Positions 1,079-32,628 of a DNA stretch of 64,000 nucleotides are shown one piece after another. Origin of the DNA: Opitutia bacterium ISCC 52 (GTDB lineage Bacteria; Verrucomicrobiota; Verrucomicrobiia; Opitutales; UBA2995); contig CP076040.1 of NCBI GenBank assembly GCA_014529675.2, positions 2,995,894-3,059,893 on the forward strand, given 5' to 3'. The position numbers were made by a program, and so were the translations under genes. The notes beneath the pieces were generated by a model. It was not told the origin of the DNA and made no database searches. It saw only the letters and a list, made by a program, of their open reading frames with translations. The number at the start of each line of letters is the position of its first letter. Position 1 is the stretch's first letter.

Positions 1079-2842
1079 CTAGCTCGCAGTTTTATTCGTT
1101 CCCATTCGGCGCAGAAAATAGCCGATGCCGCCGATCACCAAGCCACAAAAGAGGAAGCTGATTCGACCCGACATACTGTTTGGAATAATAACTCCAAGTA
1201 GTCCGATAAAGATTCCGTAGATCAGGCAAAGTATGCCCATGGCTTTACCCTGGTTATTGTCGCTGTCTTTCCCACCTTCACCATCGTGGTCTACAGGACG
1301 GTTCTGATTTCTGAAAAACTCCTCCACATGTTCCTCGGGTTGGTAGTTATTCAAACGGCCAATCCAGACAGTAATAAAAAACCAGATGCTACAAATGACT
1401 ATGTTTCCGAGACCGGAGAAGAAATATAGGAAGTCGGACTTTTCACGACCTGCAAGTTCTCCTAATCCAAACCAACCATACTGTTCAACAAGCTTGGAAA
1501 ATATCGAGAAGGCAAAACCGACCAATACGGTACTCCAAGCTGACCAACGCGGTGCTCCCTTTATAAACAGTCCCCATACCAGCGGCATAGCAATCGGTAT
1601 GGCGATCATCGAACCGAATACAGTCATGATCTCGAACAAATCCCAGTCTTTGAGATTCAGCCAAAGTAAACCCGCCAAAATAATGAGAACCCCAAAAACA
1701 GCGGACATGATTTTGCCGACCAGGAGAAGCTCCTTATCCCCTGCATTTTTGCGCAAGATTGGTTTGTAGAAATTACTAACAATGATCCCAGCATTTACAT
1801 TCAATCCGCTGTCCATGGAAGACATGGTAGCAGCAAATAAACTACAGACAAGTAGCCCAATCATTCCAACCGGAAGCACTTCCATACCCATGTAAACAAA
1901 GGCACCCTCGGCTGGGTTCGCTAAGTCCGGAAATACAGAACCCATGTCCGGTTGAAGAACACGCGCAGCCATAGGCGGGATAAACCAGATGACGGGACCG
2001 ACAAACATTAGAAAACAGGCCATCAAACTCGCCTTCTTCGCCTGTTTATCATCCTTCACACACAGGTAACGGTAAGAATCAAACATGTTGTTGAGCTTAA
2101 ATGCCTGCACCACAAACGCCGTGAATATCCAAATATACACAAAGCGAGAATTCTCCGCCAAACTAAAAGAGAAATGATGATCAGGAACTTTATCGATCAA
2201 CCCGCTAAAACCACCGATGGCTGGATGCGACAGCGCTAGAACGCAAGTGACGATACTGATACACATAAGCAGTAACACTTGAATAAAATCCGAAGCGATT
2301 ACGGCCCAAGCTCCTCCTGCCACAGACATCACTAATACTGAAATGCCAACGACCCAAACGGTAATTACGGGATCGATCTTGAAAATACTGGAAACGACAA
2401 TAGCCAGTCCGTTCAACCAGATGCCCCCATACAAAACGCGAGAAGGTATCTGCGTCCATGTAAACAATTGTTCATTCAGAGCCCCAAACCGCTTCAAGAC
2501 AGAATCGATGGGCGTTACCACACGCATTCTCCTAAACCGATAGCTGGTCACCAAGTAGTTTAGGAAGTACCCGACGGCATTGCCAAAAAAGATCATCGAT
2601 ACCAGTGCGCCGTCCGTGTAGGCCTTGCCTGCCGCGCCCGTGAAAGTCCAGGCGCTAAACTGCGTCATGAATGCAGATGCACCGACCATCCACCAGAGCA
2701 TGCTTCCACCACCGCGAAAGTAATCACTCGAGTCGCTACTGAAACTTTTGTAGACGAATCCGATGGCGAACATAAACACCACGTAGAAGGCCAAAACGGC
2801 CAAATCCCACATGGTCAGGTTAGTTCCAAATACAGTATCCAT
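1079..2842 (-). CDS. Sodium:solute symporter (SSS family)
   Basis: This 587-residue protein is almost entirely hydrophobic, with about 13-14 predicted membrane segments. It starts with a typical SSS first helix (WDLAVLAFYVVFMFAIGF) and contains the family-like stretch SSMDSGLNVNAGI. A hydrophilic loop near residue 520 is rich in D, G and N. SSS transporters couple sodium to uptake of sugars, uronates and other solutes at the inner membrane; in marine alginate degraders SSS proteins carry unsaturated uronate products. It is the last gene after a GntR regulator and an unknown protein on the same strand, so uptake of the locus end product is the likely role. The substrate is inferred from neighbours, not from sequence. 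Confidence 0.9.
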   Translation of the reverse strand: MDTVFGTNLTMWDLAVLAFYVVFMFAIGFVYKSFSSDSSDYFRGGGSMLWWMVGASAFMTQFSAWTFTGAAGKAYTDGALVSMIFFGNAVGYFLNYLVTSYRFRRMRVVTPIDSVLKRFGALNEQLFTWTQIPSRVLYGGIWLNGLAIVVSSIFKIDPVITVWVVGISVLVMSVAGGAWAVIASDFIQVLLLMCISIVTCVLALSHPAIGGFSGLIDKVPDHHFSFSLAENSRFVYIWIFTAFVVQAFKLNNMFDSYRYLCVKDDKQAKKASLMACFLMFVGPVIWFIPPMAARVLQPDMGSVFPDLANPAEGAFVYMGMEVLPVGMIGLLVCSLFAATMSSMDSGLNVNAGIIVSNFYKPILRKNAGDKELLLVGKIMSAVFGVLIILAGLLWLNLKDWDLFEIMTVFGSMIAIPIAMPLVWGLFIKGAPRWSAWSTVLVGFAFSIFSKLVEQYGWFGLGELAGREKSDFLYFFSGLGNIVICSIWFFITVWIGRLNNYQPEEHVEEFFRNQNRPVDHDGEGGKDSDNNQGKAMGILCLIYGIFIGLLGVIIPNSMSGRISFLFCGLVIGGIGYFLRRMGTNKTAS

Positions 2843-4033: not shown

Positions 4034-5110
4034 TCAAGTTGAGTGTCTTGAGATAAGTCTTACACGGCTATCGCCAGGATTGGTAACTTCACCTGATTGA
4101 GATTGGTTCAACAGAGCATCCAAACACCTGCGACCGTCTTCAAAGAGTGGAATGGATATAGAAGATATATTTGGGTACACCATGTTACAAAACGGATAAT
4201 CATTAATCCCCAATATAGCCAATTCGTCGGGTATTCCAATTCCGGCACGCAGCGCAGCATTGTGAAACAGCAGTGCGAATCTATCATCCACACAGAAAAT
4301 GGATCTTGCTTGTCCTTTAATCTGCTGGACATAACTGAAAGCTTCCACATGCAAGGTCGCATCGTACAGATTACTGGCATCAGATAATTCTATAACTTCA
4401 GGATGAAGCTCATGCTCTTCCATCCATTCTCGATAAAGGCGTACCCGATTTTCAAAGACTCGAATATGAGGATTAAATACGAAGGCTATATTATCTCCGT
4501 ATAGTTCCCTTAGATGCCTTAACCCAATATCAATTATTTTGGCCTCAGGATAGAAGCAAGAAGGTCTTCCTTCGACTTGATCGCGAATGGAATCAGAGCC
4601 ATAGAACACATAAGGGATGCCTTCATCTTCAAGATACTGGTAAGTCGACCTAACAACCCCGTAATCCCTAAAGAATAATACACCCTTTGCGTTTGGGTAG
4701 TAGTGTTTTAGATCAGCAGCAATTTCAGTAAAGTTTTGCGAGTTCATCGGAACGGGCATCAAGGGCTGCGCATAGGCTGCTGAGTCGCCGATCAGACTCT
4801 GGGCAAAACTCACGATTCCGAATTCGCGCGAAGGCAACGACTCTTGGAACCGACCCACAATCAATACCTGATGCCGGACGGTTGGAGGAGAAATAAAGGT
4901 TCCCTTGCCATGCTCACGGTAAATCCTCCCATCCTGAATGAGCTCCTTAAGCGCCATACGAATCGTAGGAACACTGACGCGAAACCGCTCTTTCAGCTCA
5001 CTTTCGGAGTAAAAACGCGCATGAGGCTCCATACGGCGCTCCTCCATTTCGGACACCAAAATACGCATGATCTGCTTATATTTCGGAGCATCTGACAGGG
5101 TAACTTTCAT
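4034..5110 (-). CDS. GntR-family regulator with LacI-type effector domain
   Basis: The 358-residue protein has an N-terminal winged helix (residues ~15-75: ESELKERFRVSVPTIRMAL, then the GKGTFI wing) and a C-terminal periplasmic-binding-protein-like domain (residues ~90-350), the AraR-type layout. A longer frame starting with GTG at 5158 exists, but its first 16 codons would run through a promoter and an 18-bp palindrome, so ATG at 5110 is chosen. It probably senses a sugar or uronate derivative and controls its own unit plus the transporter downstream. The palindrome upstream suggests autoregulation. No strong Shine-Dalgarno is visible. Confidence 0.9.
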   Translation of the reverse strand: MKVTLSDAPKYKQIMRILVSEMEERRMEPHARFYSESELKERFRVSVPTIRMALKELIQDGRIYREHGKGTFISPPTVRHQVLIVGRFQESLPSREFGIVSFAQSLIGDSAAYAQPLMPVPMNSQNFTEIAADLKHYYPNAKGVLFFRDYGVVRSTYQYLEDEGIPYVFYGSDSIRDQVEGRPSCFYPEAKIIDIGLRHLRELYGDNIAFVFNPHIRVFENRVRLYREWMEEHELHPEVIELSDASNLYDATLHVEAFSYVQQIKGQARSIFCVDDRFALLFHNAALRAGIGIPDELAILGINDYPFCNMVYPNISSISIPLFEDGRRCLDALLNQSQSGEVTNPGDSRVRLISRHST

Positions 5111-5123
5111 TGAGAAAGGGCAC

Positions 5124-5151
5124 ACATTAACTCCTATATAGGAGTTGTCAA
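5124..5151 (-). promoter_or_regulatory. Promoter with embedded 18-bp operator palindrome
   Basis: Read on the minus strand, a perfect -35 box TTGACA (5151-5146) is followed by a 16-base spacer and a -10-like TAATGT (5129-5124). The spacer and its edges contain the perfect inverted repeat AACTCCTATATAGGAGTT (5129-5146). A repressor bound there would block both promoter boxes. The adjacent gene is a GntR-type regulator, so this is very likely its autoregulatory operator. The start codon follows at 5110. Confidence 0.75.
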
Positions 5152-5202
5152 TTAACACCGGTAAATTATTTCTCTAACAACTAACCTTCAAGAAGATAGA
5201 GA

Positions 5203-6300
5203 TTATTCGTACTCGAAAATCATGCCTAAAATAGAGTCCGGATCCTGGGTTATTTGCTTGGTTTCCTCCTCGAGCTGACCAAATGGCACGCGATGAGTTG
5301 TGAGTTTCTCCACAGCAATTTTTCCTTCGGCTACTAAACGCAAACAAAGCTCCAAGTTACTCTTGGTGTCCCAGCGCACGAAAACGTCATCATGGTTTCT
5401 CCCTCGCTCCCAGGCCTTATCATGATAACCAGCACCTGTTCTTGATGAACGGCGCACATCCATATTCGTGAGCGATCGGGTAAAAGGAAACTCTGCCCCG
5501 CCAACAATAACCATCGTTCCCATAGCATGGCCATCCCCCGTCACCTTCATGCACTTCTCCAATGCATGGGCTGGTCTGGTAGCATCTCCACCCAACGCAA
5601 CCACACTGATATCCAGTCCACGACCGCGGGTAAACGCCTTCGTTCTCTCAATTTCATCTTCGACAAGGACTTGAGCTGTCTCGTCGATTCCCAAATCCTT
5701 GGCCAACTGCAATCGACTATCGATCGTATCCCAACCTATAGCATAGCAACCAGCGATCTGAAATAAGCGTGCGGTCAAAAAACCCACAATGCCCATACCG
5801 GCCACTGCTACATATTCACCCATCTTCGGATCTCCCCGGCGTAAGGCCTGCATTCCGGTCGCAAGCAACATGCCATAGGCGCCCTGCTCATAGCTGGCTT
5901 CCTCAGGTAGTGATACGACCAGATTCTGAGGAACGACAGAGTAATCCGAATGCTGGGCATACCCTGCTCCAATCGAAGCTACTCGATCGCCCTCCTTCAA
6001 TCCATGCACCTCTGCACCTACAGCTCCAACTATGCCCGCATTAGCATAGCCGAACGGTTTCGGCTTTAATGACTCATCAGGATTCAGTTGAAGTTCACGA
6101 AGCCCTCTCCAACCACCTGCAGCTTTGCTTCCACGGGAAACGGGTCCCTTGAGTTCCGTCCCCGGACTAACCAGTGAGGCCTTGGCCTTGATTAACACCA
6201 TGCCCGGACCGAGTTCTGGCATGTCGCTTTCCATCCGACGGAAACTACCATCGCCATGAAGAGTTAATACGGTCCTACTAGTAGGGATTTTTGTACTCAT
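5203..6300 (-). CDS. Medium-chain (zinc-type) alcohol dehydrogenase-like oxidoreductase
   Basis: The protein has 365 residues: an N-terminal GroES-like domain (residues ~1-150) and a Rossmann domain with VAVAGMGIVGFLTARLF around residue 165. The N-terminal domain has the VSPGTEL motif, seen in the MDR subgroup that often lacks the catalytic zinc site; the usual GHE zinc ligand region reads GYANAG here. Members act on sugar or polyol alcohols with NAD(P). It lies 26 bases downstream of a TIM-barrel isomerase and 92 bases upstream of the GntR start, in the same block as the PL6 lyase, so oxidation or reduction of a lyase-derived sugar acid is plausible. The exact substrate is unknown. Confidence 0.85.
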   Translation of the reverse strand: MSTKIPTSRTVLTLHGDGSFRRMESDMPELGPGMVLIKAKASLVSPGTELKGPVSRGSKAAGGWRGLRELQLNPDESLKPKPFGYANAGIVGAVGAEVHGLKEGDRVASIGAGYAQHSDYSVVPQNLVVSLPEEASYEQGAYGMLLATGMQALRRGDPKMGEYVAVAGMGIVGFLTARLFQIAGCYAIGWDTIDSRLQLAKDLGIDETAQVLVEDEIERTKAFTRGRGLDISVVALGGDATRPAHALEKCMKVTGDGHAMGTMVIVGGAEFPFTRSLTNMDVRRSSRTGAGYHDKAWERGRNHDDVFVRWDTKSNLELCLRLVAEGKIAVEKLTTHRVPFGQLEEETKQITQDPDSILGMIFEYE

Positions 6301-6326: not shown

Positions 6327-7157
6327 TTAGTAATGTTGATCGATCAACTCCTTTAAGAATTTCAAATCGTCTTTTAGATGTAGAATGACGTCATTCCCAG
6401 ACAGTCCTTTCCTCGCCTCATCTTTGTACTCACAGGTAATGCAAATCGGCAATGAGTAAGAACGGCGCCCAAGCTCAGCGATTGCTTTATTCCAGGAGGT
6501 ATACCCTTCCCTACCAGGAACCCAGGTACGGTTCCAAATAGTCGCTCCAAAATCATCTTTCCCATCGGGGTAACGGATAGCATTCTTCAAATTGACGAGC
6601 GAAAGGCGAGACCAGGCAATATCGATGGCGATTTCCTCAACCTCGCCATCCAATCCCGTATGCCCCAGGTCCAGCACGGCAGTCACTTCCTCATTGGGAA
6701 GCCCCTCGATGGCATGCATCATTCCAATAGAGCTGGTAACAAACTCATCGCAGTGGTTTTGCAGACCAATGGTTGTTGCTGACCCAGCAAGAGCTTCTCC
6801 CAGTTCCAAACAAAGTGTACGAAATTCTTCAACGTGCTCTTGGTAAGATTTTTCAGGCGTAATCTTAAGCATGGTTCTCAGAACAGGAACTCCGGCCTGG
6901 GCGCAGGCTCGAGCTGTTTTTACATCCATGTCTCCAGCCACGCTGTAGATAGTCAACCCACAAGCTTTGAAAACATCAACGGCATGACCCAAGGTTTCCT
7001 CAATCGTATCCGGCTCAACCTGGAACCCCGGACGAACCGGTAATTCTATACCATCAAATCCCAGCTCAGCGATCAGGTCTGCCAGTGCCGAAATTTCTAA
7101 ATCTTTCCAAGGCTTCGTAAATACCGTAATCGGTGGAGTGTCGTTAGCTTGGGTCAT
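6327..7157 (-). CDS. Sugar phosphate isomerase/epimerase-like TIM barrel
   Basis: This 276-residue protein has the AP-endonuclease-2/xylose isomerase-like layout: a DGIELPVRPG strand near residue 40, an acidic metal-ligand region (AVLDLGHTG) near residue 165, and a final CITCEYKDE strand near residue 245. There is no signal peptide, so it is cytoplasmic. Proteins of this family isomerise or epimerise sugars and sugar acids using a divalent metal. It lies between the PL6-cytochrome gene (22-base gap) and the dehydrogenase gene (26-base gap), so it is in the same probable operon. The substrate cannot be assigned from sequence alone. Confidence 0.85.
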   Translation of the reverse strand: MTQANDTPPITVFTKPWKDLEISALADLIAELGFDGIELPVRPGFQVEPDTIEETLGHAVDVFKACGLTIYSVAGDMDVKTARACAQAGVPVLRTMLKITPEKSYQEHVEEFRTLCLELGEALAGSATTIGLQNHCDEFVTSSIGMMHAIEGLPNEEVTAVLDLGHTGLDGEVEEIAIDIAWSRLSLVNLKNAIRYPDGKDDFGATIWNRTWVPGREGYTSWNKAIAELGRRSYSLPICITCEYKDEARKGLSGNDVILHLKDDLKFLKELIDQHY

Positions 7158-7179: not shown

Positions 7180-10100
7180 TTATCGCTCTTCACCTAGAAC
7201 CCTATAAAATTGGCTCGCTCCGGACCCTGAAGCCACATCGAGTAATACATCGAGGGTATCCTTCCCTCCCGGGACGGTGAGCATTTGTCCGTGCTCACCA
7301 GCTAAAGGACGCCAATTCTCTAAGTTTTCACTGGTCTCAATCCAGTAATTTGCAAAAGGCCCACCAGGGACTTTCAAATTCAAGACACCATTTGCGTGCG
7401 CCAAGTGCACTCGACCCGTTTCATTTCCGGACAGAGGATTGGTTCGATTAATAAATTCGACCTCATTGGTATTCCCATCCAAATCCGGGTCATCATCCCT
7501 GCCTCCAATCGAATCCTTCAGTTCACCAAATTGCGTCTCCTGCCATTCGTCGTAGCTCAGATATACAGCGAGTCCTTCTTCAATCCAACGCCGGATCAAC
7601 TCAGTTCCTTCGGGATCAATTTCACTGGAGCCCAGCGGAGGCATCCGTGTCTCCCCTACTTCTGCAAGCATCCGCAGTAGTAATACTGAATTGTCTGCGT
7701 CGCCTCGTGTCACCAAATCCTTTTCCGGATCCGAGGAGGTACCATCGATCAATCGCGTCCGGCCCAAGATTCGCTTAGGCCGGATATCAAAAGGATCCGT
7801 TTCGGTTCCACCCGCTTGATGGCAATTCACGCAATTGGCCGCCAAATAAGAGCGCGCCTTGAAATCAATACTCGCATTGGGATCATCCAATTTGGCAAAG
7901 CGAGGCATGGTGCGTGCATCTTCAACTTCTTCTTCGAAGAACTGGTGCTTACTCAAGTATTCCAAATAATTCACTTCCTCACCACCCACGTTGACCGAGT
8001 GGTTTAATTGATAAGTGTTGAAGCTGAGTGCAAAGCCCCCGCTTATAGTGTGACAAGCCAGACAATCCGCTCGGCTAGGAATCGACCAAGTCTGAGTCTT
8101 CTGCTCTCCCCCATCGGTAATACTCAAATCGAATGATACTCCATCTTCACCAACCAAGGTGGCTTCTGTCCCAGCTTCGTTCCAACGATAAGCGACTCCA
8201 TAGGTACTGAATTCCGTTTTCACCAAGAAGCGCGTTTCAAGTCGTATAGCTGTGTCAGGATTACCACGCTCCAACTCAATATCAAAGTGCTTTACCCACA
8301 CTGAACCCTTAGGAAACGTCCAGTTTTCTGTATCAGAGAATCCCATATTTGAACCCATTGGAATATAAAACCAACGGCTCTTCTTCGCATAGTCTGACCA
8401 AAAACTGATGGCGGGTTCATAAGACCAAATACCGCCCTCGGGTTGTAGGGACTGCAAATCCTGGAAAGCACCCGTTTCACTCAACAAATTCGGCCACCCA
8501 TCCACGGCGAACGGTACATTCAGAGTGTAGTTTAGGGGTCGTCGTCCCGGGGCATAACTCGGACCCACATCACCTGCTTCGAGTGGACCATTTGTAAACG
8601 CAGCTGCCTCTGAATACTCATCAGCCCCTGTGTCGGAAATACCTTCGCGTATTTGTCCATCAATATCCAGTAGAACATCAGCCACTACATTTGAAGACGC
8701 ATTCACCGCGGGACTATTTTCAGAAAGCCTTTGGATCCCTGCATCCGGATCGAACATGAACTCTGGATTAAGAATCGTGAAACCTTCGGTCACCTCTCCG
8801 CCCATAGGCCTACCAAAAATCAGGTTTCCTGCCCAAGTTTGAGCCGTTGGGTTTTCACCTGAAATAAAGCTGCCGCTGGTTTTCGATCCAGCATGTAAGA
8901 TGTTGTTAGCTACTGTGATTCCCGTAGGCACAATCGTTCGGTCGCGAGAGCCAAACCCTCTTCCCACACTGATGAGTGGCCCCGAGTTATTATAAAAAGT
9001 GTTGAAAGCAACCACAGCGTTGTGGGCAGCATCATACTCGTTCAACTTGGCGCCAGGCACACCGGCGTAGAGTGTAATTACTGCATCATCTCGGGCTGTA
9101 GTACTCTCAAAATAATTATTTATGACGCGGTGATCCTCACCAATGACCCGGACCCCACCGGATTCCGCCTGAAAGTTGCCAATAAAATAATTCCCCTCAA
9201 CCACACAGCGGTGACCATGACGCAGGGTGAGGGTGCCTCGACACTCCAGGAATGTGTTATAGCGATAGATATTCTCACCTGACTTGTTAGAAATAATTTC
9301 AATCTCTCCATCCACCTCGGAGAAAAGGTTATACTCTACGGTAGTACGAGAGTTCGAGAGAGACGTATCACTCGTCCCGATACGGATCGTTTCCCAACCA
9401 TTTTGACCACCACTATCTATACGATTGGCAAAATGATTGTGATCAATTCGGTGATAATCCGGTTCTCCGTCTAACCAGGCAACCAAAGTGACTCCTTCCA
9501 CATTATGGCCCGAAAAGTAACAATGATCCACCCGGTTGCGCATCCCTCTAAGAGAAACCCACATCGTCTTGGCACCGTCCTCAGGAACGTAGTCGATAAT
9601 GGATACATTCGTCACCCTACAGTCGACCGCATCTTCTCCTCCGGATCTGAACTGAATAATTTCATCGTCGTTTCCAGAATAAGGTCCGGCAAATATCAAT
9701 CCTTCCAATATCAGCCAGCTCCCCCCCATCTGCACTCGGGATTCTTCGGTAAGAATGACCTCCCCTGGTGCTTCAGCCTTGAGCGTTATGGGTGCATTCT
9801 CAAGGCCGTGGCCCTCCAATCGAATCACCAAATCTGAATAGATACCGTTTGGAATTACCAGCGTATCGCCAGGCAGGGCTGTTTCCAGAGCATCCTCGAC
9901 TTCGTTGGAAGTGGTCACATTCGTTGTGATTCCATCCCTTACATCCACAGCAAAGCTGTCACTGTCTACCTCTCCTTCATTATTGGAAACTCGAACCCAA
10001 AAACTGATATCCACCGTTAAAGGACTGCTCACATAGGAAGTATCGGTAGCACCTGCTATGGGTTTTGAAACATCCCCCGCATTGCCCTCATACCACTGGA

Positions 10101-11301
10101 AGGTTAAGGGGTCGCGTCCCAGTGCCTCCACTGCAAAGGACGCCGTGTTCCCAGTCACCGCAATGGAGTCTCCCTCTGAACTTAGAATAATAGGCAGCAC
10201 CTGCTCAGGAGTCGTTACTTCAAGCTCATTACTTGGATCTGACTTGAACCCGTTGTCAGCAATCACCCGGTAGGTATAGCTATTTTCCGGCTCCACCGAC
10301 TCGTCCAAGTAGCTAGTTACATTCGAGGTCACGTTGACCAACATTTCAAATGGTCCTTCTGCTCCAGCCTTTCGCTCAATGATGAAACCGATCTCGTCGT
10401 CCGAAGCATCGACCCAGGAAAGTTCAACTGACAAGGGAAAGGCCTCAACCAAGGCCAATGTATTGGGCGCCACCGACGGGCCGAAAATTTCATTTATAGG
10501 GGCAAGTATTATATTATCGAATACAATACCGCCTTGACGCTTGGAATCCTGATAAAAGGCAATTTGCCCCAAGTCATCATCCTGCTCGTTAAATTTTACC
10601 TGAGGTGCGTTTGCCGGATCTGGAGTAATATGAAAGTCATACTCACCTAATTTCACCTCATCCAAAAAGAGATGGAGTGTATTCGGGCTAATCGCACCCA
10701 CTCCCAACCCAGGCAGATCATAAGCAACCGAGTTAGTGTCGTGAGAATTTGCCAGAATATCTATTCTGTTGCGGTTGTCGGTATCATAAGAAGCAACTGT
10801 GGACGATCCACTAAGCGAATTCAGAATCAGATCTCCATTGTTATGAATCCGAAGCTCGAATGGGCGAAAGTCTGAATTATTCAAAGAATCATCAACACGT
10901 CCCAGTGCAACATGCACACGCATGTCGGTATCCAATTCTTCAGACGCGAACGCCCGCTGAAAATCAAACCCCAAGCGAACTTCAGTTCGATTCGTTTCCT
11001 CATTGAATGGAAATCGCATATGAGTGGGATTCCCATTAGTGAGATCACCATTCAAATCATACACATAAAGACTCTTACCGCCCAAAGGATTAGCTGGATT
11101 TGCCCCTCCATCAATCACAACGGCTCCATTCGTGGAATCATTCGAGCTGGGCGAGAACTTTACGTTGTCGATACCTGCTAATTCCGGCTGTTCGCCAACC
11201 GTATCCGTTTCAAAGTCCAAATTGACCAAAATTTCTGAATGCACCACACAGCATGAGCTCAACAGCAATAGTAGAAATCCAAACGTTTTAAATGGGCTCA
11301 T
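7180..11301 (-). CDS. Secreted PL6-type polysaccharide lyase fused to a diheme cytochrome c domain
   Basis: This 1373-residue protein starts with a signal peptide (FLLLLLSSCC). The order is: a LamG-like beta domain (~25-270), a fibronectin type III domain (~276-367), an Ig-like domain (~368-455), a PL6 beta-helix (~455-890), a cytochrome c region (~905-1260) and a short C-terminal module (~1265-1373). In the beta-helix, NKSGEN (Lys ~673) and TLRHG (Arg ~694) match the base and acid of chondroitinase B, with the same 21-residue spacing; the GEIEI acidic pair just before fits the calcium site. PL6 enzymes cleave alginate or dermatan sulfate. The cytochrome part has CLACH (~1078) and CVNCH (~1155) heme motifs and a late MPPLG. 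It resembles the SO2930/HNE_0200 diheme family, which is sometimes fused to PQQ sugar dehydrogenases. A lyase-cytochrome fusion is unusual. Confidence 0.88.
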   Translation of the reverse strand: MSPFKTFGFLLLLLSSCCVVHSEILVNLDFETDTVGEQPELAGIDNVKFSPSSNDSTNGAVVIDGGANPANPLGGKSLYVYDLNGDLTNGNPTHMRFPFNEETNRTEVRLGFDFQRAFASEELDTDMRVHVALGRVDDSLNNSDFRPFELRIHNNGDLILNSLSGSSTVASYDTDNRNRIDILANSHDTNSVAYDLPGLGVGAISPNTLHLFLDEVKLGEYDFHITPDPANAPQVKFNEQDDDLGQIAFYQDSKRQGGIVFDNIILAPINEIFGPSVAPNTLALVEAFPLSVELSWVDASDDEIGFIIERKAGAEGPFEMLVNVTSNVTSYLDESVEPENSYTYRVIADNGFKSDPSNELEVTTPEQVLPIILSSEGDSIAVTGNTASFAVEALGRDPLTFQWYEGNAGDVSKPIAGATDTSYVSSPLTVDISFWVRVSNNEGEVDSDSFAVDVRDGITTNVTTSNEVEDALETALPGDTLVIPNGIYSDLVIRLEGHGLENAPITLKAEAPGEVILTEESRVQMGGSWLILEGLIFAGPYSGNDDEIIQFRSGGEDAVDCRVTNVSIIDYVPEDGAKTMWVSLRGMRNRVDHCYFSGHNVEGVTLVAWLDGEPDYHRIDHNHFANRIDSGGQNGWETIRIGTSDTSLSNSRTTVEYNLFSEVDGEIEIISNKSGENIYRYNTFLECRGTLTLRHGHRCVVEGNYFIGNFQAESGGVRVIGEDHRVINNYFESTTARDDAVITLYAGVPGAKLNEYDAAHNAVVAFNTFYNNSGPLISVGRGFGSRDRTIVPTGITVANNILHAGSKTSGSFISGENPTAQTWAGNLIFGRPMGGEVTEGFTILNPEFMFDPDAGIQRLSENSPAVNASSNVVADVLLDIDGQIREGISDTGADEYSEAAAFTNGPLEAGDVGPSYAPGRRPLNYTLNVPFAVDGWPNLLSETGAFQDLQSLQPEGGIWSYEPAISFWSDYAKKSRWFYIPMGSNMGFSDTENWTFPKGSVWVKHFDIELERGNPDTAIRLETRFLVKTEFSTYGVAYRWNEAGTEATLVGEDGVSFDLSITDGGEQKTQTWSIPSRADCLACHTISGGFALSFNTYQLNHSVNVGGEEVNYLEYLSKHQFFEEEVEDARTMPRFAKLDDPNASIDFKARSYLAANCVNCHQAGGTETDPFDIRPKRILGRTRLIDGTSSDPEKDLVTRGDADNSVLLLRMLAEVGETRMPPLGSSEIDPEGTELIRRWIEEGLAVYLSYDEWQETQFGELKDSIGGRDDDPDLDGNTNEVEFINRTNPLSGNETGRVHLAHANGVLNLKVPGGPFANYWIETSENLENWRPLAGEHGQMLTVPGGKDTLDVLLDVASGSGASQFYRVLGEER

Positions 11302-11597: not shown

Positions 11598-12431
11598 ATG
11601 CAATCAAACAATTTGCTCTATCCGGGATTCAAATGGTCTTTTTCTACGCTCGGTTGTCCAGAAATGACGCTGGATGAAATCTGTGAACTAGCTCGTACCT
11701 TTGGCCTTCCATATGCGGAACTCCGCGCCACGGAGCAACGAGTGGACTTGCCTACTCTCTTTCAGGAGCAGTTTGATTCACCGGAATCATTAGCCAGCTA
11801 TCTCAAGGATCAGAAAATCGGTATCAGTTGCTTCGACACCTCCCTGAAAATGGTTGGCAATTCCACCGAAGATCGAATCGCCTTCCTGGAATTTCTTCCT
11901 TGGGCTGAAGCTACGGGCACTCAATTTCTACGTGTTTTTGATGGTGGAACGGTGGATACGGCGCTCAATGACATCGCTTACGGAATCGCCTGCGATACCA
12001 TCGAATGGTGGTTAGAGGAAAGAGACAAGAGCGGCTGGAAAGCCGACATCGCCATTGAGACGCACGACTGCCTGGTTCATATCGAATCTCATCAACGTCT
12101 CGCAGCGAAATACCCGGAGCTTAAGATCATTTGGGATACACACCACACCTGGAAGAAAGGGAATGTGGCCGTTGAAGCCAGTTGGGATCAACTCTCTCAA
12201 AACACTTGTAGCGTTCACGTAAAAGACAGTATTTCGGAACCGTCCGCACGCCACCCATTCACTTATGTCAACCTGGGTGATGGAGAGTTCCCTCTAGCTA
12301 CGACCCTCGACCTCTTAAAAGACAACCACTATCAAGGGTTTGTGACTATCGAGTGGGAACGCATGTGGCATCCCTACCTACCTGAACTTAAAGAAGCTTT
12401 CACAAGAGCCAGAGAACTCAACTGGTTTTAA
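11598..12431 (+). CDS. Sugar phosphate isomerase/epimerase-like TIM barrel
   Basis: This 277-residue cytoplasmic protein has the AP-endonuclease-2-like fold, with metal-site strands DIAIETHDC (~150), IIWDTHHTW (~180), CSVHVKDS (~208) and FVTIEWERMW (~256). It is the first gene of the plus-strand block and is followed 11 bases later by an SDR reductase and then a secreted lyase. A role in rearranging the monomer released by the lyases is likely but inferred. It is clearly distinct from the other isomerases in the window, with little similarity beyond the fold, so it probably acts on a different intermediate. Confidence 0.85.
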   Translation: MQSNNLLYPGFKWSFSTLGCPEMTLDEICELARTFGLPYAELRATEQRVDLPTLFQEQFDSPESLASYLKDQKIGISCFDTSLKMVGNSTEDRIAFLEFLPWAEATGTQFLRVFDGGTVDTALNDIAYGIACDTIEWWLEERDKSGWKADIAIETHDCLVHIESHQRLAAKYPELKIIWDTHHTWKKGNVAVEASWDQLSQNTCSVHVKDSISEPSARHPFTYVNLGDGEFPLATTLDLLKDNHYQGFVTIEWERMWHPYLPELKEAFTRARELNWF

Positions 12432-12442
12432 ATCTCCATCGG

Positions 12443-13207
12443 ATGAACGAAAAATTAAAAAACAAACGCGTACTAGTAACAGCCGGAGCCCAGGGAATTG
12501 GCGAAGCCATTTCAAGGACGCTTCTCGAAGCCGGAGCACATGTAGCCATTCACTACTTTTCCAGTTCAGCCAATGCTGAAAAAATTGCTGAAGATGCCAA
12601 CGGCAAGGGTCAAACGGTATACACCCTTGGCGGTGACTTGACCGATGCAGACAAAGCAAAGGAAACCGTCGAGAACGCAGTCGCCCATTTGGGTGGGCTG
12701 GACATCTTGATCAATAACGCCGGCTCACTGGTAGACCGAAAATGGGTGGGAGAGATCGACGCCGAATTCTGGCGTAAGGTCATCGACATCAACATGAGCT
12801 CCATGATGTTTGTTTCCCAGGCAGCAGCCGCACATCTGGCGAAAAACGAAACCAGCAGCATGGTAAACCTGGCATCACTAGCTGGTCGCAAAGGCGGACA
12901 CCCAGGATCCTTAGTTTATTCGACTACCAAAGGAGCCATTCTCACCTTCACCCGTGCACTCGCCGTTGAACTCGCTCCACAAGGCACTCGCGTAAATGCG
13001 GTTGCCCCGGGACTCATCCTTGGCACATCATTTCACAGCACACACACAAGCGAGGAATCCGCCAACGAAACGATCAAAGGCATACCTCTGGGACGTGCCG
13101 GAAATCCTGACGACGTAGCTCGAGTGGTTGAGTACCTGGCTTCAGAATACGATGGTTTTGTCACCGGTGCCACGATAGACATAAATGGTGGAGTCTACTC
13201 CGCCTAA
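12443..13207 (+). CDS. SDR-family oxidoreductase, candidate uronate reductase
   Basis: This 254-residue classical SDR has the cofactor loop TAGAQGIG (residues ~13-20), NNAGS near residue 92, and the catalytic triad Ser145, Tyr159 and Lys163 (YSTTK). The C-terminal stretch GATIDINGGVYSA is typical of the FabG-like group. In alginate-degrading bacteria an SDR reduces the unsaturated-uronate product DEH to KDG with NADPH or NADH. The position between an isomerase and a lyase gene fits such a role, but SDRs are too diverse to assign it from sequence. The preceding gap is 11 bases and the next gene starts 5 bases after the stop. Confidence 0.88.
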   Translation: MNEKLKNKRVLVTAGAQGIGEAISRTLLEAGAHVAIHYFSSSANAEKIAEDANGKGQTVYTLGGDLTDADKAKETVENAVAHLGGLDILINNAGSLVDRKWVGEIDAEFWRKVIDINMSSMMFVSQAAAAHLAKNETSSMVNLASLAGRKGGHPGSLVYSTTKGAILTFTRALAVELAPQGTRVNAVAPGLILGTSFHSTHTSEESANETIKGIPLGRAGNPDDVARVVEYLASEYDGFVTGATIDINGGVYSA

Positions 13208-13212
13208 ATAAA

Positions 13213-15633
13213 ATGACACAGCTTTTTCACAGAGTAACAATCCTTGCGATCAGTCTGGCGAGTGCCGCCACTCTCCAGGCTGGCAAGGATTTTCTCAACG
13301 CCAATTGGGAATCCCATTCCGGATTCCGAGTCTCCACTGAAGCCGTACTTCCCGAAAAGGAGATCCATCCTTCCCTTTGGTTCAGCGAAGAAGGTCTGGC
13401 GGCATTTAAAACCCAACTGAATGCCGATGCCACCATTCGCGAATATTGGACCAAAGTTAAGAATCACCCATTGCTTACCGCCCCCTTCCCAGAAGTTATC
13501 CCAGATGAAGAGCTCTGGATCCCCGAACTCGCAAGTGCCAATAACAAGCGAATTCACAAGTACTACGGCGAAATGACCCAGATCCCACTCTACGCTGGGT
13601 TCATGGCGTGGATGACGGATGATCCGCAAGAGAAACAAGCCTACATCGACCGGGCAAAAGCGGCATTAATGCGAGCCTTCGATGGACCGTTCTTCGATCT
13701 CGATCCCAGAGGCTCTGGCGTCGACAAATCGGTGGACGAAATTTACCAAGGCATCTGGTCGCAATCCATCTGTGCCGCCTACGACTTTGTGCAACCCTTT
13801 CTCAGTAAGGAGGAAGATAAGATCATCCGAGCACGCCTACTCAAAGTGGCTCGCTACACTCATGAGAACCTTGATTCTTGGGCGAGTGGACCTCATAACC
13901 ATCTGTCCAAACCGGCTTGGGGATTAGCTGCCTATGCGCTGACCTTTACAGACGATCCCGATGCAGCTGATTGGTTTCAAAATGCCATGGAGGCAGCCAA
14001 CAGGAACACGCATTACCACTTCAGTGCCGATGGAATTTATCGTGAAGGCGGCATGTATTATATCTTCTCATGGCTGAATTACGTACCTTTCCTCTATCAC
14101 TACAAAAATGTTTCGGGCGTAGATTACTTTGAAGATTTCAAAGAGTCTTTTGAGTGGGGAGTCATAGGAAGAAATGCTAAGGGCTGGATCATGAACGTGG
14201 AAGACTCATTCATTCGTCCCGTTCCTACCCAGATGGTAGCCAAGGCCTTTGCCGATCATCGTTCTTTCCTCGCCCCCGATGTTCCATTCTCGCAGATACT
14301 CCAATGGAATTTTCAAACCACCGACTATCAACCCTACCGCGACATTGAAAAGATCAGCGGCTTCAACTACACCGGAGCCACTTGGGATTATCCGAAGGAA
14401 CTCTACGAACTGATTTCTTACGATCCAGACATCCAAGCGCGTGCTCCAACGACTGATCCAACCATTTTTATGGATGGAGGACAGACCTTCTTCCGCGATC
14501 GCTGGACTCATGGAGAAAAAAATCAATCTTACTTGCTTTTTCATAGCGTACCACAAGCTGACAACCACGACCACAATGATACACTGAGCTTCATTCTCTA
14601 CTCAAAAAATCAGATGATGGCCTCTGATAGTGGTTATACGCGCTCTAGCTACGGAGAAGACATTCGCTATACTTACTACCGTCGCCCACAGGCGCACAAC
14701 ACCCTCACTTTTGACGATATTCCCTTAGGAGACTTCGTGGAAAACACACCCAATCCATCAGAGGATAAACTAAACACGTCCTTCTTTGATCTCGAAAAAA
14801 AGACGGCACCTTTCCGTCGCTACCTCGGAGAGATACAGGGTTCAGCCAACCGAACCATAGCCTTTATCCAAGGTGACTACTTCCTCATTCTGGATGAAGC
14901 AAAGGGGCACGACAATGGACAGAAGCTGGACGGAAAATTCGACGTCTATTTTCACGGTGGACGCAGCTCGGTTCATCGCGAGGGAAATCAATTCACATGG
15001 TCGTATGAGAAAGATCGGTACGGTGATGCAGCAAAATTAATCAGCTATCAACTCACTCCAGGATCTGAGACCATAATCAACAACACCGAGAGCACTTATA
15101 TCAAGGCCGACTGCGACTCCTTCCCCTCCCTTCAAACATCAAAGGCCGGCAGCAGTGCATTGTTTGGACAAATTCTTTTTCCTCTTGGTGAGAGCGAGAA
15201 GGCTCCGATCATAGAAGACATTTCCAGTGAGAAACTCCTGGGAGCAAAAATCACACAAGGCAATACCACGGACCTTTTTCTAAAATCACATTCCGACAAG
15301 AAGAGTTCCAAGGAAGGCATTCAGCTTGATGGTGACTTTTCTTGGACGAGACACGAGTCAGGTAAATTGACTCAAGTGGTTGGCCAATCCGTCAAACTAG
15401 TTAACATAGAAAATTCGAGTTTCCTTACAGCGGACGAGCGCCTCACCTTTGCTCTCGAAATGGGCAAAACCATCAGCCTCGCTATCGATATTGAAAAGCC
15501 AACCGAAGTCCACTTAAAATTACCCAAGAAGATTCAGTCGGTCATGCTTGATGGCAGAAAGGTCCCATTCAAATCAACTGACTCAGGGCTTATTATTCGA
15601 TTCGAAGAAGACGGTAATTATTTACTGAATTAG
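13213..15633 (+). CDS. Secreted heparinase II/III-type polysaccharide lyase
   Basis: The protein has 806 residues with a signal peptide (ILAISLASAATLQA). The N-terminal half is an alpha/alpha-toroid typical of heparinase II/III and alginate lyase proteins, with SGPHNHLSKPAWG near residue 230 (candidate catalytic His) and REGGMYYIFSWLNY near 275 (candidate Tyr). The second half is beta-rich, with DNHDHNDTLSFILYS near 450 and RRPQAHNTLTF near 490, hallmarks of the metal and active-site region in PL15, PL17 and PL39-like lyases. Such enzymes often release unsaturated monomers from oligouronates in the periplasm. The exact PL family and substrate are not settled from sequence. It is the third gene of the plus-strand block. 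Confidence 0.85.
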   Translation: MTQLFHRVTILAISLASAATLQAGKDFLNANWESHSGFRVSTEAVLPEKEIHPSLWFSEEGLAAFKTQLNADATIREYWTKVKNHPLLTAPFPEVIPDEELWIPELASANNKRIHKYYGEMTQIPLYAGFMAWMTDDPQEKQAYIDRAKAALMRAFDGPFFDLDPRGSGVDKSVDEIYQGIWSQSICAAYDFVQPFLSKEEDKIIRARLLKVARYTHENLDSWASGPHNHLSKPAWGLAAYALTFTDDPDAADWFQNAMEAANRNTHYHFSADGIYREGGMYYIFSWLNYVPFLYHYKNVSGVDYFEDFKESFEWGVIGRNAKGWIMNVEDSFIRPVPTQMVAKAFADHRSFLAPDVPFSQILQWNFQTTDYQPYRDIEKISGFNYTGATWDYPKELYELISYDPDIQARAPTTDPTIFMDGGQTFFRDRWTHGEKNQSYLLFHSVPQADNHDHNDTLSFILYSKNQMMASDSGYTRSSYGEDIRYTYYRRPQAHNTLTFDDIPLGDFVENTPNPSEDKLNTSFFDLEKKTAPFRRYLGEIQGSANRTIAFIQGDYFLILDEAKGHDNGQKLDGKFDVYFHGGRSSVHREGNQFTWSYEKDRYGDAAKLISYQLTPGSETIINNTESTYIKADCDSFPSLQTSKAGSSALFGQILFPLGESEKAPIIEDISSEKLLGAKITQGNTTDLFLKSHSDKKSSKEGIQLDGDFSWTRHESGKLTQVVGQSVKLVNIENSSFLTADERLTFALEMGKTISLAIDIEKPTEVHLKLPKKIQSVMLDGRKVPFKSTDSGLIIRFEEDGNYLLN

Positions 15634-15714
15634 GGGGCCTTATTTCCTGCCTGCTTCTTTGCTTCAACAATCAATCGAAGTACTATCCCAGCATAACTGG
15701 AGGATACTACTTTG

Positions 15715-17259
15715 ATGAACACGAAACATCTCTCTGTTGGACTGATTGCTGCACTAATCACCGTAAACACCTGGGCAAATGATGAGCTCGCAATAAAACT
15801 AAACGATGCACTCGAGTTTGCAGAGCAACCCCTGACTGGCCTCGCTGAAGAAGTCCTCGATAACACTAATCAATTCGTAGACTACTCTAACACTGCCGGA
15901 CAATGGAATGTCAAAAACAGTAGCACTTGGTGCAGTGGATTCGTTCCGGGTCTGTTCTGGTATATGTACGACCACACCGGAGAACTGGTCTGGTCACAAC
16001 GCGCTCGCCTTTGGACTAATGGTGTGAGGTCCCGGTCTACTGCTGCTGACAACGATACTGGATTCCAAATATTCGACAGTTTTGGACTCGGGTATTTGAT
16101 TCTGGGAGAGTCAAACGAGGATTACCTTAACGTTATGCGAACAGCAACCAACACGTTTTCAACTCAACGATATAACCCAATCATCGGTTGCTACAGAGCG
16201 TGGACCAACCACTCCTCAAATCCTGTTACAAACCCGAGCATCACAGCTAGCACCACAAATCCGAACGACATGGTATTTGAGGTCAACATCGACATGCTGA
16301 TGAACTTGGAGCTCCCGCTATTTATTGGATACCGAGACTCAAACCAGAACTATATTGATGAATCGATTTCTCATGCGGACATATCCTGGAGGGATCTAGT
16401 GCGAGAAGACGGAAGCACGTACCACGTAGTTGGATACAAACCTGATGGATCGGTGGACTACAAACGTACCCATCAGGGATGGATAACGGATTCCACCTGG
16501 TCACGGGGTCAGGCATGGGCCGTCTATGGCTATACGATGGTTTATCGCTATACACAATTGCTGCGTATGCTGGATCGCGCAGAAGCCTGTTTCGACTACT
16601 TTGTTACTGCAACTGATATTCAAAGCTCAGATGCTATCCCCTACTCTGACTTTGATGCGGCACTCAACTCGCAAAACCCTCGAGATTCATCCGCTGCGGC
16701 CATTGTCGCATCAGCTGCCCTTGAACTGTACGATATGACCGAAGATGAAAAATACCTAATTCGGGCCTCCGCCATTCTAAATTCACTAGCCAGCACGGAA
16801 TACCTTTCAAGAGGCACGAACTACGAATCCATTCTCCGAAAGGCATCTAGCAAATGGGGCGACCCTGAAACGGCTGCCATTTTCGCCGACTATTTCTTTG
16901 TAGAAGCCGGCCTTCGCTACCTGGAAATGTTTCCCTTGGATCCGACTACTGGAAAGCCAGTCAATATTTCAACAAGAGGTCACGTTGGAACAGGAGATCA
17001 AATTCTCATAGCTGGCTTTGTCATCTCAAAAGGAGCACAACAAGTTATTGTTCAGGCATTGGGCCCAGAGCTTTCGACGGAAGGCATTGATAACTTTCTA
17101 TCAGACCCGGCGCTAACCATCTTTGATGCAAACGAGGAAGCATTAGCTACCAATGACAACTGGGAAGACGATGATAAGCAAGTAATCATCATCAGTGACC
17201 TTTGGAATGGTTCACCTCCCATGGATCCAGACAGCAATAGGCTATCGCGATTACCCTAG
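15715..17259 (+). CDS. GH88 unsaturated uronyl hydrolase with truncated C-terminal module
   Basis: The product is 514 residues with an N-terminal signal peptide (HLSVGLIAALITVNTWA). ATG at 15715 is preferred over TTG three bases earlier because GGAGG lies ~10 bases upstream. GH88 hallmarks are clear: WCSGFVPGLFWYMYD (~72), DNDTGF with candidate Asp114, NIDMLMNLELP with candidate Asp193, TWSRGQAWAVYGY (~262) and DSSAAAIVASAALEL (~325). GH88 enzymes hydrate and remove the unsaturated uronic acid left at chain ends by lyases. From residue ~420 on comes the C-terminal module shared with two other proteins here (NISTRGHVGTGD). This module is cut short by a frameshift at ~17239, giving a seven-residue foreign tail. 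Confidence 0.9.
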   Translation: MNTKHLSVGLIAALITVNTWANDELAIKLNDALEFAEQPLTGLAEEVLDNTNQFVDYSNTAGQWNVKNSSTWCSGFVPGLFWYMYDHTGELVWSQRARLWTNGVRSRSTAADNDTGFQIFDSFGLGYLILGESNEDYLNVMRTATNTFSTQRYNPIIGCYRAWTNHSSNPVTNPSITASTTNPNDMVFEVNIDMLMNLELPLFIGYRDSNQNYIDESISHADISWRDLVREDGSTYHVVGYKPDGSVDYKRTHQGWITDSTWSRGQAWAVYGYTMVYRYTQLLRMLDRAEACFDYFVTATDIQSSDAIPYSDFDAALNSQNPRDSSAAAIVASAALELYDMTEDEKYLIRASAILNSLASTEYLSRGTNYESILRKASSKWGDPETAAIFADYFFVEAGLRYLEMFPLDPTTGKPVNISTRGHVGTGDQILIAGFVISKGAQQVIVQALGPELSTEGIDNFLSDPALTIFDANEEALATNDNWEDDDKQVIIISDLWNGSPPMDPDSNRLSRLP

Positions 17260-23896: not shown

Positions 23897-25768
23897 TTAC
23901 TCGACCTCGTAAACTTCAATTAATGCGACACCGGTCGTGTCCCCTTTTCCTGAAATTACAGCCGTGTAACTTCCTTGGTTGAGCATAAGAATAATTCCAG
24001 AGCTCGAGCTTCCGTCAGCAAAAGGTAAGGCTCCACCCCACAAATCCCTAATCTTGGTTGCGGATTCAGCATCGTCCTCCCAGTCATCATTCGTTCCCAA
24101 AGAAGCATTTCCTGCATCGAAAACTTCAAGAACAGGATCAGCAAGAGCTCCTGTAACACCGTTGTTCGTCAACTCAGGACCGATTGCTTGTATGAGAACT
24201 TTTTGAGAATTGTGCCCAATTACAAATCCACCAATCAGAACATCATCCCCTGTTCCAACTTGACTACGTGTCGAAAGATTAACGAGTTTTCCACCGGTGG
24301 CAGGATCCCTTCCTCCGTTATTGTTCTCATCAACCGCTTCAACCACTTTGTAGATCATACCTTTTCGTTTTTCTAACAAGTATAGCTCTTGGTCATCATC
24401 GATGCCGAAACGGATGTCCGCTCGTTCATTATTCCCAGCCAATTCAAACATCGTAGTGGGTTGACCATCGAGCTCTAGATTGAGCACTTCGATGTCGGAC
24501 TGCGTTCCCTGAGATAGAGAATCAGCATCGACGATCCAAAGATCCCCAAACTTGATATCGCCAAAAATAAATTTTCCCGCCATCGCAGGTAGATCAGATC
24601 CTCGGTAAACATAACCACTCACGATGGCCACACCTACGTGACGTCCAAACTGAGCGACAGGGTAAGTATAGCCTAATTCTGCATCGTTTGCCGGTAGCTC
24701 AAAGACCTCTTCTCTATCACCACTGTTGGGATCATTTTCAAAATTTGGATTAATTCGGAAGGTTCCTTCCCGAACATTCCAACCGTAATTATTTCCAGGT
24801 TCGATCAAATTGAGCTCTTCAATTTGTTTCTCTCCAATATCACCAGAAAGCATTTTCCCATCACCTGCTGTATCCCAACTGATACGGTGTGGATTACGAA
24901 AACCGTAAGCCCAAATTTCGTCGAAAGTGTCAGGATCGCCATCATCAGCAAATGGGTTGTCTGCAGGAACGCCATATTGCCCGTTTGGACTATTATTACC
25001 TGCGGTATCGATTCTTAAAATGGTTCCTAAAACAGAGTTCAGTAACTGAGTATTTCCTGGATAGCCTTCAATCGTTGTACCGCCATCGCCAATACAAATG
25101 TAAAGGTACCCGTAGTCATCATCGGTAGAAACTGAGTTTGGATTAAAAGAGATTTCTTGCATCCCATGAATCGTATGCACGAGGTCCACCCGCATAATTT
25201 CCCGGCTTGTTCCTGAAAAGGTCGCAGCGGCAGGATCTGTCGCTGTCCATTCCATAACAACACCCTGTAGAGCAACTGGAGAATTTACAGGTCTAGTAAA
25301 ATCGGCCGTGCCCGAACCTGGACCTTCTGAGTGAGCGGTATAAAATTTGCCGTTATTGGCAAAGTCAGGATGAAAATCAAAAGAACCAAAACCGGTTCCA
25401 AGACCGGGAGTGGTAGTAAATGCAGGAACCTCAGTATCTAAATCAAGATACAAGGCGACTTGCTGACCATCGATCACGTGGAGAGGTCCATTCAAGTCAT
25501 TGACCATAAGTCGACCTGCAGCATCGTGCATTGGCTTCAGGTGATTAATTCGCGCCAAAGGAACTGAACCTGAACTCGCGGGTATTCGCACAAAAGACTC
25601 AATCTTAAGCGTGATACCACTTGGCTCTGGAATATCCGGAACAGGGTTATTGACCTGAGCATTGCCGACAGAGGCAATCAGTGCAGATATAGAAATCCAA
25701 AAAGCGGTCTTAAGAGAGTGCTTGGATGCGTTCAAAGCTAGGGGAGAGGACATAGTATGAGTGGGCAT
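23897..25768 (-). CDS. Secreted PQQ-dependent sugar dehydrogenase (GSDH type) with C-terminal module
   Basis: The protein has up to 623 residues, starting at ATG 25768 (a second ATG is at 25753), with a signal peptide ending near VGNAQ. Residues ~45-480 form a six-bladed propeller of the glucose/sorbosone dehydrogenase type, with the family-like stretches GFGSFDFHPDF, DDYGYLYICIGDGG, WAYGFRNPHRISWD, GDIGEKQIEELNLI and YGWNVREG. These enzymes oxidise sugars in the periplasm using PQQ and pass electrons to a cytochrome. Residues ~500-623 are the same C-terminal module seen in the GH88 protein and in the triple-repeat protein (NLSTRSQVGTGDDVLIGGFV ... GVALIEVYEVE). A terminator-like hairpin separates it from the gene upstream. 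Confidence 0.88.
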   Translation of the reverse strand: MPTHTMSSPLALNASKHSLKTAFWISISALIASVGNAQVNNPVPDIPEPSGITLKIESFVRIPASSGSVPLARINHLKPMHDAAGRLMVNDLNGPLHVIDGQQVALYLDLDTEVPAFTTTPGLGTGFGSFDFHPDFANNGKFYTAHSEGPGSGTADFTRPVNSPVALQGVVMEWTATDPAAATFSGTSREIMRVDLVHTIHGMQEISFNPNSVSTDDDYGYLYICIGDGGTTIEGYPGNTQLLNSVLGTILRIDTAGNNSPNGQYGVPADNPFADDGDPDTFDEIWAYGFRNPHRISWDTAGDGKMLSGDIGEKQIEELNLIEPGNNYGWNVREGTFRINPNFENDPNSGDREEVFELPANDAELGYTYPVAQFGRHVGVAIVSGYVYRGSDLPAMAGKFIFGDIKFGDLWIVDADSLSQGTQSDIEVLNLELDGQPTTMFELAGNNERADIRFGIDDDQELYLLEKRKGMIYKVVEAVDENNNGGRDPATGGKLVNLSTRSQVGTGDDVLIGGFVIGHNSQKVLIQAIGPELTNNGVTGALADPVLEVFDAGNASLGTNDDWEDDAESATKIRDLWGGALPFADGSSSSGIILMLNQGSYTAVISGKGDTTGVALIEVYEVE

Positions 25769-25819
25769 AGGTAATTAAGTCGTCCAAATTAAACGGACCT
25801 TTTATAGCTAAAAATGAAA

Positions 25820-25849
25820 TAGCTGGGCGGGATTCCGCCCACCCAGCTA
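25820..25849 (-). terminator. Hairpin downstream of the triple-repeat gene
   Basis: On the minus strand TAGCTGGG...CGG pairs with CCGCCCAGCTA around a short loop, with a 4-base bulge, and is followed by a T-rich run. It lies ~53 bases after the stop of the triple-repeat gene and ~52 bases before the sugar dehydrogenase start. It probably limits read-through, so the lower genes may be expressed less than the receptor and repeat protein. Confidence 0.65.
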
Positions 25850-25901
25850 TCATTTAGAAATCAAACAAATGTTGAAATTCTATGAGTGCTAAAGGTTAGA
25901 C

Positions 25902-32293: not shown

Positions 32294-32628
32294 AGAAAAT
32301 GCTTCGTTGCGCTTATTTAACGCTGTTCGAAACGTCTCCCTAACCATAGGAAGACAGTGTTTAGAGAGTGGTTCTAGAATGGGGTTTATGTACTGATATT
32401 AAATAATTAACAACGATTAATTAATAATTATTAATTGCACTCAAGAAAAAAATCTGCATATTTTTCATTATTCTCAATTATTAACCATCGTCATTCCTGA
32501 TAGTTATCATGCCACCAACAATGGTAAACATCTACTTATTAATAATCCTTAAAGACTGAGTTCGAACTTGATTAATAAGTATTATAAATTTTAAATTATA
32601 ACTTACTCTTTTATAGGATCAACTCTAC
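32294..32628. promoter_or_regulatory. Divergent promoter region with AT-rich inverted repeats
   Basis: This 335-base spacer separates the TonB receptor (minus) from the LacI regulator (plus). It is very AT-rich from 32390 on. An 11-base perfect inverted repeat, TACTTATTAAT (32533-32543) and ATTAATAAGTA (32571-32581), lies 48 bases before the regulator start. A third related block, GATTAATTAATAATTATTAA, sits at 32415-32434. These are candidate operators for the LacI protein. I cannot point to a firm promoter pair. Confidence 0.5.

Follow-up and report, generated by a model that had tools for sequence, protein, structure and literature searches.

A PL6-type polysaccharide lyase fused to an SO2930-type diheme cytochrome module in Opitutia bacterium ISCC 52

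The SO2929/SO2930 gene pair, in which a beta-helix protein (TIGR03805) adjoins a diheme cytochrome (TIGR03806), is the nearest annotated precedent for the protein described here; the two genes stand side by side in Novosphingobium. In the uncultured Opitutia bacterium ISCC 52 (contig CP076040.1, positions 2,995,894 to 3,059,893; this whole stretch of 64,000 nucleotides is called the window below), one gene encodes a polysaccharide lyase of family PL6 and a two-heme module of the same cytochrome family as a single protein. The fusion is a real and conserved new combination of known families, while coupled chemistry is unproven. In the precedent the genes are separate and the beta-helix is not a PL6 one (no Chondroitinas_B match; E 0.007 over 60 residues); SO2929 was considered as a PL6 relative and rejected, with no support beyond this 60-residue stretch. 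TIGR03805 did not match the fused protein at E up to 1, nor any protein in 388 genomes of the phylum, a search in which no positive control was scored.

Other described systems resemble one or other part of the protein. AlyGC (5gkd) and its relatives share the beta-helix fold, the catalytic lysine/arginine pair and, by spacing, the calcium-site residues (N634 and E668 here), but where the fused protein has its diheme module after the lyase, AlyGC carries a further large domain, and the fused protein has in addition an N-terminal domain, an FN3 and an Ig domain. Another PL6 with an extra domain has GH28 as its partner (PMC12028748). The GSDH-SO2930 cytochrome fusions of this phylum belong to the same cytochrome lineage, the parent lineage by tree, and differ in having a dehydrogenase in the place of the lyase. 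Cbp2D and TERTU_2913 (PMC10916295), like fungal CDH and AA12, are secreted polysaccharide-directed proteins with heme domains, but these accompany binding domains or oxidoreductases rather than a polysaccharide lyase; Cbp2D and TERTU_2913 are at most functional analogues. The literature search brought up no polysaccharide lyase described with a heme module, and for TIGR03806/SO2930 it returned one network study and no functional study. Verruconatronum alginivorum, a member of the phylum that grows on alginate and has PL6 and PL39, is not reported to have a lyase-cytochrome fusion in the available part of its description.

The lyase and its joint with the cytochrome

The gene was read from the minus strand as one uninterrupted frame, from an ATG at 11301 to a stop at 7180; the initial annotation had described this frame of 1373 residues correctly, though without its strand. 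The product is predicted to be exported. Its domains were, in order: a signal peptide, an unnamed domain, FN3, Ig-like, PL6, the two-heme module (residues 932-1244) and a tail (Table 1). Of the N-terminal domains proposed at first, FN3 was recovered and Ig-like weakly so, whereas LamG-like had no profile support. Residues 23-275 matched no family in the profile search, yet recurred in PL6 homologues; some relatives had two or three tandem copies (L197:5243-10807, L195:2356-6765), which might point to a polymer-binding role.

The PL6 active site looks intact from the sequence and the model. Pfam Chondroitinas_B matched residues 462-810 with an E value of 3.9e-89 (300 bits vs. a cut-off of 24), and AlyGC matched at 2.6e-69. 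An AlphaFold model covering residues 456-1250, with a mean pLDDT of 91, was superposed on AlyGC with a Z of 49.4 and 1.8 A over 425 residues, at 36% identity. The lysine/arginine pair 21 residues apart, already proposed from the sequence, corresponded to K220 and R241 of AlyGC, whose mutation removed nearly 95% of activity (PMC12028748); the alanine of an R241A mutant chain aligned exactly under R694, and equivalents of both residues were invariant across 39 PL6 domains. N634 and the invariant E668 were spaced from K673 as the calcium-site residues N202 and E236 of MhAly6. Sequence is no reliable predictor of specificity in PL6 (PMC6879350).

Of the family's eight genomes, six had the fusion; the five copies outside ISCC 52 were 61-79% identical to its own. 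An assembly error joining two genes, named in the initial annotation as a possible refutation with the merge at about 8600, close to the joint found here, was rejected and has a negligible probability: the genome is a single contig, GC was even along the gene, the same fusion was present in five other independent assemblies, and nothing was found in favour of an error. All five genomes of the family with a PL39-type gene had the fusion, and both genomes lacking the fusion also lacked PL39.

The two halves were found as separate genes in G648, a genome from another family of the same order. At the syntenic place, a PL6 protein of 1469 residues without heme motifs adjoined a stand-alone cytochrome of 484 residues with its own signal peptide, in a locus including a TIM barrel protein, a short-chain dehydrogenase, a PL39-type lyase, a beta-helix protein, a DUF2264 protein, a hydroxyacid dehydrogenase, a cupin-type isomerase and a symporter. 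Residues 22-928 of the fused protein aligned to this lyase and residues 917-1373 to the cytochrome, starting at position 23 of the latter, close to where its signal peptide ends, and running to its C-terminus. The joint was placed at about residues 917-921 because the two alignments meet there, and it unites the lyase with the complete mature cytochrome. The association is thus not limited to fusion, and the separate-gene form provides a ready comparison.

No PL6-cytochrome fusion was found elsewhere among PL6 loci taken from 373 genomes of the order (a few PL6 frames of 711-877 residues were not inspected) or among cytochrome loci from 388 genomes of the phylum, and no place in the plasmid collection covered 80% of the fused protein. 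A C-terminal tail domain of about 130 residues, possibly a sorting or surface signal, was common to the G648 lyase (L195:2356-6765) and the GSDH of the window (23897-25768), and absent from the fused lyase.

The two-heme module and its first heme domain

TIGR03806 matched residues 937-1241 at 2.9e-60 and over almost its full length (profile positions 2-312 of 314), in agreement with the proposed likeness to the SO2930/HNE_0200 family; an absence of any cytochrome profile match, which would have spoken against the proposal, was not observed. The module is not filed as a curated TIGR03806 member because its score (204 bits) is below the curated cut-off (313), which was reached in none of the 388 genomes of the phylum and was exceeded by the Novosphingobium protein used as positive control (351). 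The two CxxCH motifs and MPPLG were present as annotated (residues 1080 and 1157, and M1220). In 20,000 shuffles of the fused protein, two CxxCH never occurred together. Both motifs and M1220 were kept in 98-99 of 99 sequences and, together with the PL6 residues, in every fused copy reaching those positions. The low TIGR03806 score would suit a cytochrome part that is decaying or purely structural, but this is very unlikely: the heme-binding residues have all survived in six genomes whose copies differ down to 61% identity, and nothing in the phylum sample reached the cut-off.

Two frames of the ISCC 52 genome corresponded to half of the module without dehydrogenase or lyase: one of about 329 residues (G000:C1:551739-552515, L002) and one of about 325 residues (G000:C1:2083037-2083645, L004), matching only the second part of the cytochrome and the tail (residues 1076-1333 or 1134-1333 of the fused protein). 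A Pseudoalteromonas plasmid protein of 2157 residues annotated as “starch-binding” (L208:3610-10083) combined a GSDH-like domain, an SO2930-type cytochrome and further CxxCH-bearing regions.

For the heme-2 half, a sequence relative with a known structure was FoxE (6.2e-7). The heme-1 half appears to be related to cytochromes P460, on comparisons of predicted structure and of profiles. The heme module modelled alone had a pLDDT of 93.6, and in a structure search its first 190 residues matched P460/c'-beta proteins. These filled the top eight rows and 15 of the top 16, the odd row being FoxE, which matched the second half of the module. The best Z was 7.1, below 8 and in a range that may mean little, with unrelated folds from 3.5 and Foldseek E values >0.1. 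A comparison of profiles against P460 proteins from this phylum gave 93-94%, and with the heme motif removed the score was 35.0 (vs. a maximum of 19.9 in 100 column-shuffled controls). None of 40 members passed the Pfam PF16694 cut-off, with weak matches in 13 of them (best E 0.069).

The likeness to cytochromes P460/c'-beta (PMC11928373) extends to the CxxCH near the end of the predicted heme-1 fold and to a lysine at the cross-link position. Along a shared FPxG strand, K1004 aligned on F61 of the Methylococcus c'-beta, in a register fixed by the F61V chain 7zqz; this F61-type residue has been equated with the cross-linking lysine of P460s (PMC11928373). K1004 was present in 89 of 99 sequences; two fused copies (G006 and G007) had a glutamine instead, and the cross-link therefore cannot be general. 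E1022, T1023, Y1038 and W1040 were invariant (99 of 99, the canonical Novosphingobium protein included). The fused protein differs from the P460/c'-beta proteins in the second cytochrome c domain that follows, in that cross-link and distal carboxylate are putative and in that no hydroxylamine context is known.

Since it combines a P460/c'-beta-like fold with a lysine at the cross-link position, heme 1 may be more than a carrier. It could be a P460-type active site with its own chemistry (of the peroxide, nitric oxide or hydroxylamine type, or oxidation of the sugar product), heme 2 shuttling the electrons. We consider this rather unlikely: the run of P460/c'-beta rows before the drop to 3.5, the motif-free profile score and the conservation of K1004 and E1022 would agree with it, but the best Z and the Foldseek values, the failure of every member at the Pfam cut-off and the glutamine of the two fused copies would not, and H1005 might itself serve as a ligand of heme 1, which would close the site. 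A stronger form would make the SO2930-type module a P460-like heme enzyme equipped with a cytochrome c relay of its own, and the fused protein bifunctional, cutting a uronate polymer and then oxidising the product or disarming a reactive small molecule in place. This form is more doubtful still; if true, it would be the first lyase-heme enzyme.

Origin of the module and its possible role on the lyase

A maximum likelihood tree of 39 cytochrome sequences placed the six fused cytochromes in one clade (100/99), with the stand-alone G648 copy as sister (100/99), both nested in a group borne mostly by dehydrogenases. In the PL6 tree, independently, the lyases of G380 and G648 were the neighbours of the fused ones. 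Such cytochromes had been described initially as stand-alone or attached to dehydrogenases dependent on pyrroloquinoline quinone (PQQ); a GSDH-type domain was indeed found in 86 of the 101 cytochrome-bearing proteins surveyed, always N-terminal to the cytochrome. On the trees and the synteny, the simplest history would start from a cytochrome borne by a dehydrogenase: it would have lost that partner, come to lie next to a PL6 gene and, in one family, been fused to it. The fused protein offers a way into the SO2930 family, whose heme-1 half is apparently P460-related and whose usual partner in the phylum is a sugar dehydrogenase. A GSDH copy elsewhere in the ISCC 52 genome (G000:C1:2011222-2012192, L225) was split over two frames with an in-frame TAG and is an apparent pseudogene beside an intact copy.

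The relatives of this cytochrome presumably take the electrons of the PQQ-type sugar dehydrogenase to which they are attached. The most likely role of the fused module, put forward tentatively, is to relay electrons from the oxidation of sugars while attached to the lyase. With K673 and R694, and assisted by calcium, the PL6 domain of the exported protein would cleave a uronate polymer resembling alginate by beta-elimination, as the intact residues and the fold suggest. The two-heme unit, descended from a cytochrome whose relatives sit on PQQ-type dehydrogenases, now sits on the lyase, and a dehydrogenase of the same family remains in the locus without a cytochrome. This GSDH or another oxidoreductase would oxidise the sugar ends freed by the lyase, the electrons would pass from heme 1 to the Met-ligated heme 2 and on to the respiratory chain, and the lyase and N-terminal domains would keep the relay at the polymer. 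The observations establish the fusion and its ancestry, the locus, the catalytic residues and the heme sites; the donor, acceptor, electron path and substrate are inferred.

The relay is favoured because the fusion is conserved, the heme and PL6 residues are kept, the ancestry lies among dehydrogenase-borne cytochromes, cytochrome c assembly genes are present in the genome and a PL39-type gene is a neighbour; and because lyase and cytochrome are separate adjacent genes in G648 and a cytochrome-less GSDH occurs in the loci of ISCC 52 (G000), G003 and G380. The orthologues in G003 and G380 conserve a candidate catalytic histidine, and by sequence the GSDH is a candidate partner of the PQQ type. 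Extracellular sugar oxidation during alginate breakdown is a question testable with three proteins of one locus.

Several points weigh against the relay. No PqqE was found above cut-off in the genome, so PQQ would have to be taken up from outside; alternatively, the GSDH domain may not bind it. In a cytochrome-bearing Teredinibacter protein, a domain distantly like PQQ dehydrogenases bound no PQQ (PMC10916295). The syntenic locus of G380 had the GSDH and the lyase but no cytochrome in the stretch read. The P460-like fold predicted for heme 1 would be as compatible with a heme that binds ligands or is catalytic as with a relay, and the potentials reported for the P460 superfamily are low (-205 and -340 mV; PMC11928373) and therefore unfavourable for accepting electrons from PQQH2.

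Coupling of cutting and oxidation does not follow from the fusion alone and is unproven. PL6 beta-elimination needs no electrons; therefore any coupling would act through proximity or products, not through the cleavage step, and the role of the heme part has to lie in a second reaction or in a location. Two independent functions may simply be tethered: a redox protein would be held at the surface or polymer where uronate is cut, for instance to supply an acceptor that is respiratory or extracellular, and reduction of the hemes would be unconnected with the products of the lyase. This is possible, though on the unlikely side. The electron-free cleavage, the FN3, Ig and N-terminal domains, which suit a spacer or binding role, the precedents of cytochromes with carbohydrate-binding modules (Cbp2D and TERTU_2913; PMC10916295) and the cytochrome-less locus of G380 all agree with it, but one family has the cytochrome next to the lyase and another has the two fused, and a GSDH is present in the same locus. 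The relay was ranked above co-location without coupling, and the latter above a P460-type active site. A redox partner for a copper monooxygenase (lytic polysaccharide monooxygenase, LPMO) on the same polymer, like fungal CDH and AA12, is highly improbable: analogous modular redox proteins exist in fungi and Cellvibrionales, but no AA10 LPMO was found in the genome (other LPMO families were not searched), and alginate is soluble and accessible to lyases.

Neighbouring genes

Table 1. Positions in the window of the features of the fused gene and of neighbouring genes
Feature	Position	Strand	Basis
Fused gene, PL6 lyase and SO2930-type diheme module, 1373 residues	7180..11301	-	profile matches; conserved in G003, G004, G005, G006, G007
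Signal peptide, residues 1-22	11236..11301	-	sequence; hydrophobic N-terminus in homologues too
N-terminal domain, residues 23-275, without Pfam name	10477..11235	-	single or repeated among PL6 homologues
FN3 domain, residues 278-368	10198..10470	-	matches 2dju (1.4e-4), FN3con 4u3h
Ig-like domain (weak), residues 370-455	9937..10194	-	Ig_7 E 0.0074
PL6 beta-helix lyase, residues 460-917	8551..9924	-	Pfam and AlyGC matches; AF2 pLDDT 91; AlyGC superposition
K673, catalytic lysine	9283..9285	-	aligned with AlyGC K220; invariant
R694, catalytic arginine	9220..9222	-	aligned with AlyGC R241; invariant
Joint of the fusion, residues ~917-921	8539..8553	-	separate-lyase homology ends ~928, separate-cytochrome homology starts 917
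Heme-1 domain, residues ~933-1120, cytochrome P460/c'-beta-like	7942..8505	-	model, structure and profile comparison
K1004, P460 heme-lysine cross-link position	8290..8292	-	alignment
E1022, candidate distal carboxylate	8236..8238	-	invariant 99/99
CLACH, heme 1, at residue 1080	8050..8064	-	motif, conserved
Heme-2 domain, residues 1121-1245, class-I-like cytochrome c	7567..7941	-	FoxE 6.2e-7
CVNCH, heme 2, at residue 1157	7819..7833	-	motif, conserved
M1220 (start of MPPLG), probable distal ligand of heme 2	7642..7644	-	98/99 sequences
C-terminal tail	7183..7566	-	common to G648 stand-alone cytochrome (alignment)
Sodium:solute symporter	1079..2842	-	neighbour comparison
GntR/LacI-like regulator	4034..5158	-	neighbour comparison
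Zinc-type alcohol dehydrogenase family protein	5203..6300	-	neighbour comparison
Xylose-isomerase-like TIM barrel protein, next downstream	6327..7157	-	neighbour comparison
TIM barrel protein, divergent neighbour	11598..12431	+	syntenic in G003, G648, G380
Short-chain dehydrogenase, possible uronate reductase	12443..13207	+	neighbour comparison
PL39-type alginate lyase	13213..15633	+	closest solved structure 6jph, 3.9e-175, full length
GH88-like unsaturated uronyl hydrolase homologue	15712..17259	+	3wiw 1.7e-45
GSDH-type dehydrogenase without cytochrome, candidate partner	23897..25768	-	PF07995 90.5 bits
TonB-dependent receptor	28862..32347	-	gene of the locus

The PL6 and PL39-type lyases (6jph, the solved structure closest to the latter, is presumably a PL39 enzyme), the GH88-like protein, the short-chain dehydrogenase, the symporter and the TonB receptor would together suit a locus for alginate or a related uronate. 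The GSDH of G003 and G380 contained one unit of a domain of about 250 residues, which in the window formed a separate adjoining gene (25902-28805) with three near-identical copies; the two genes span 23897-28805 of the window, and the arrangement is a second fusion or fission in the same locus.

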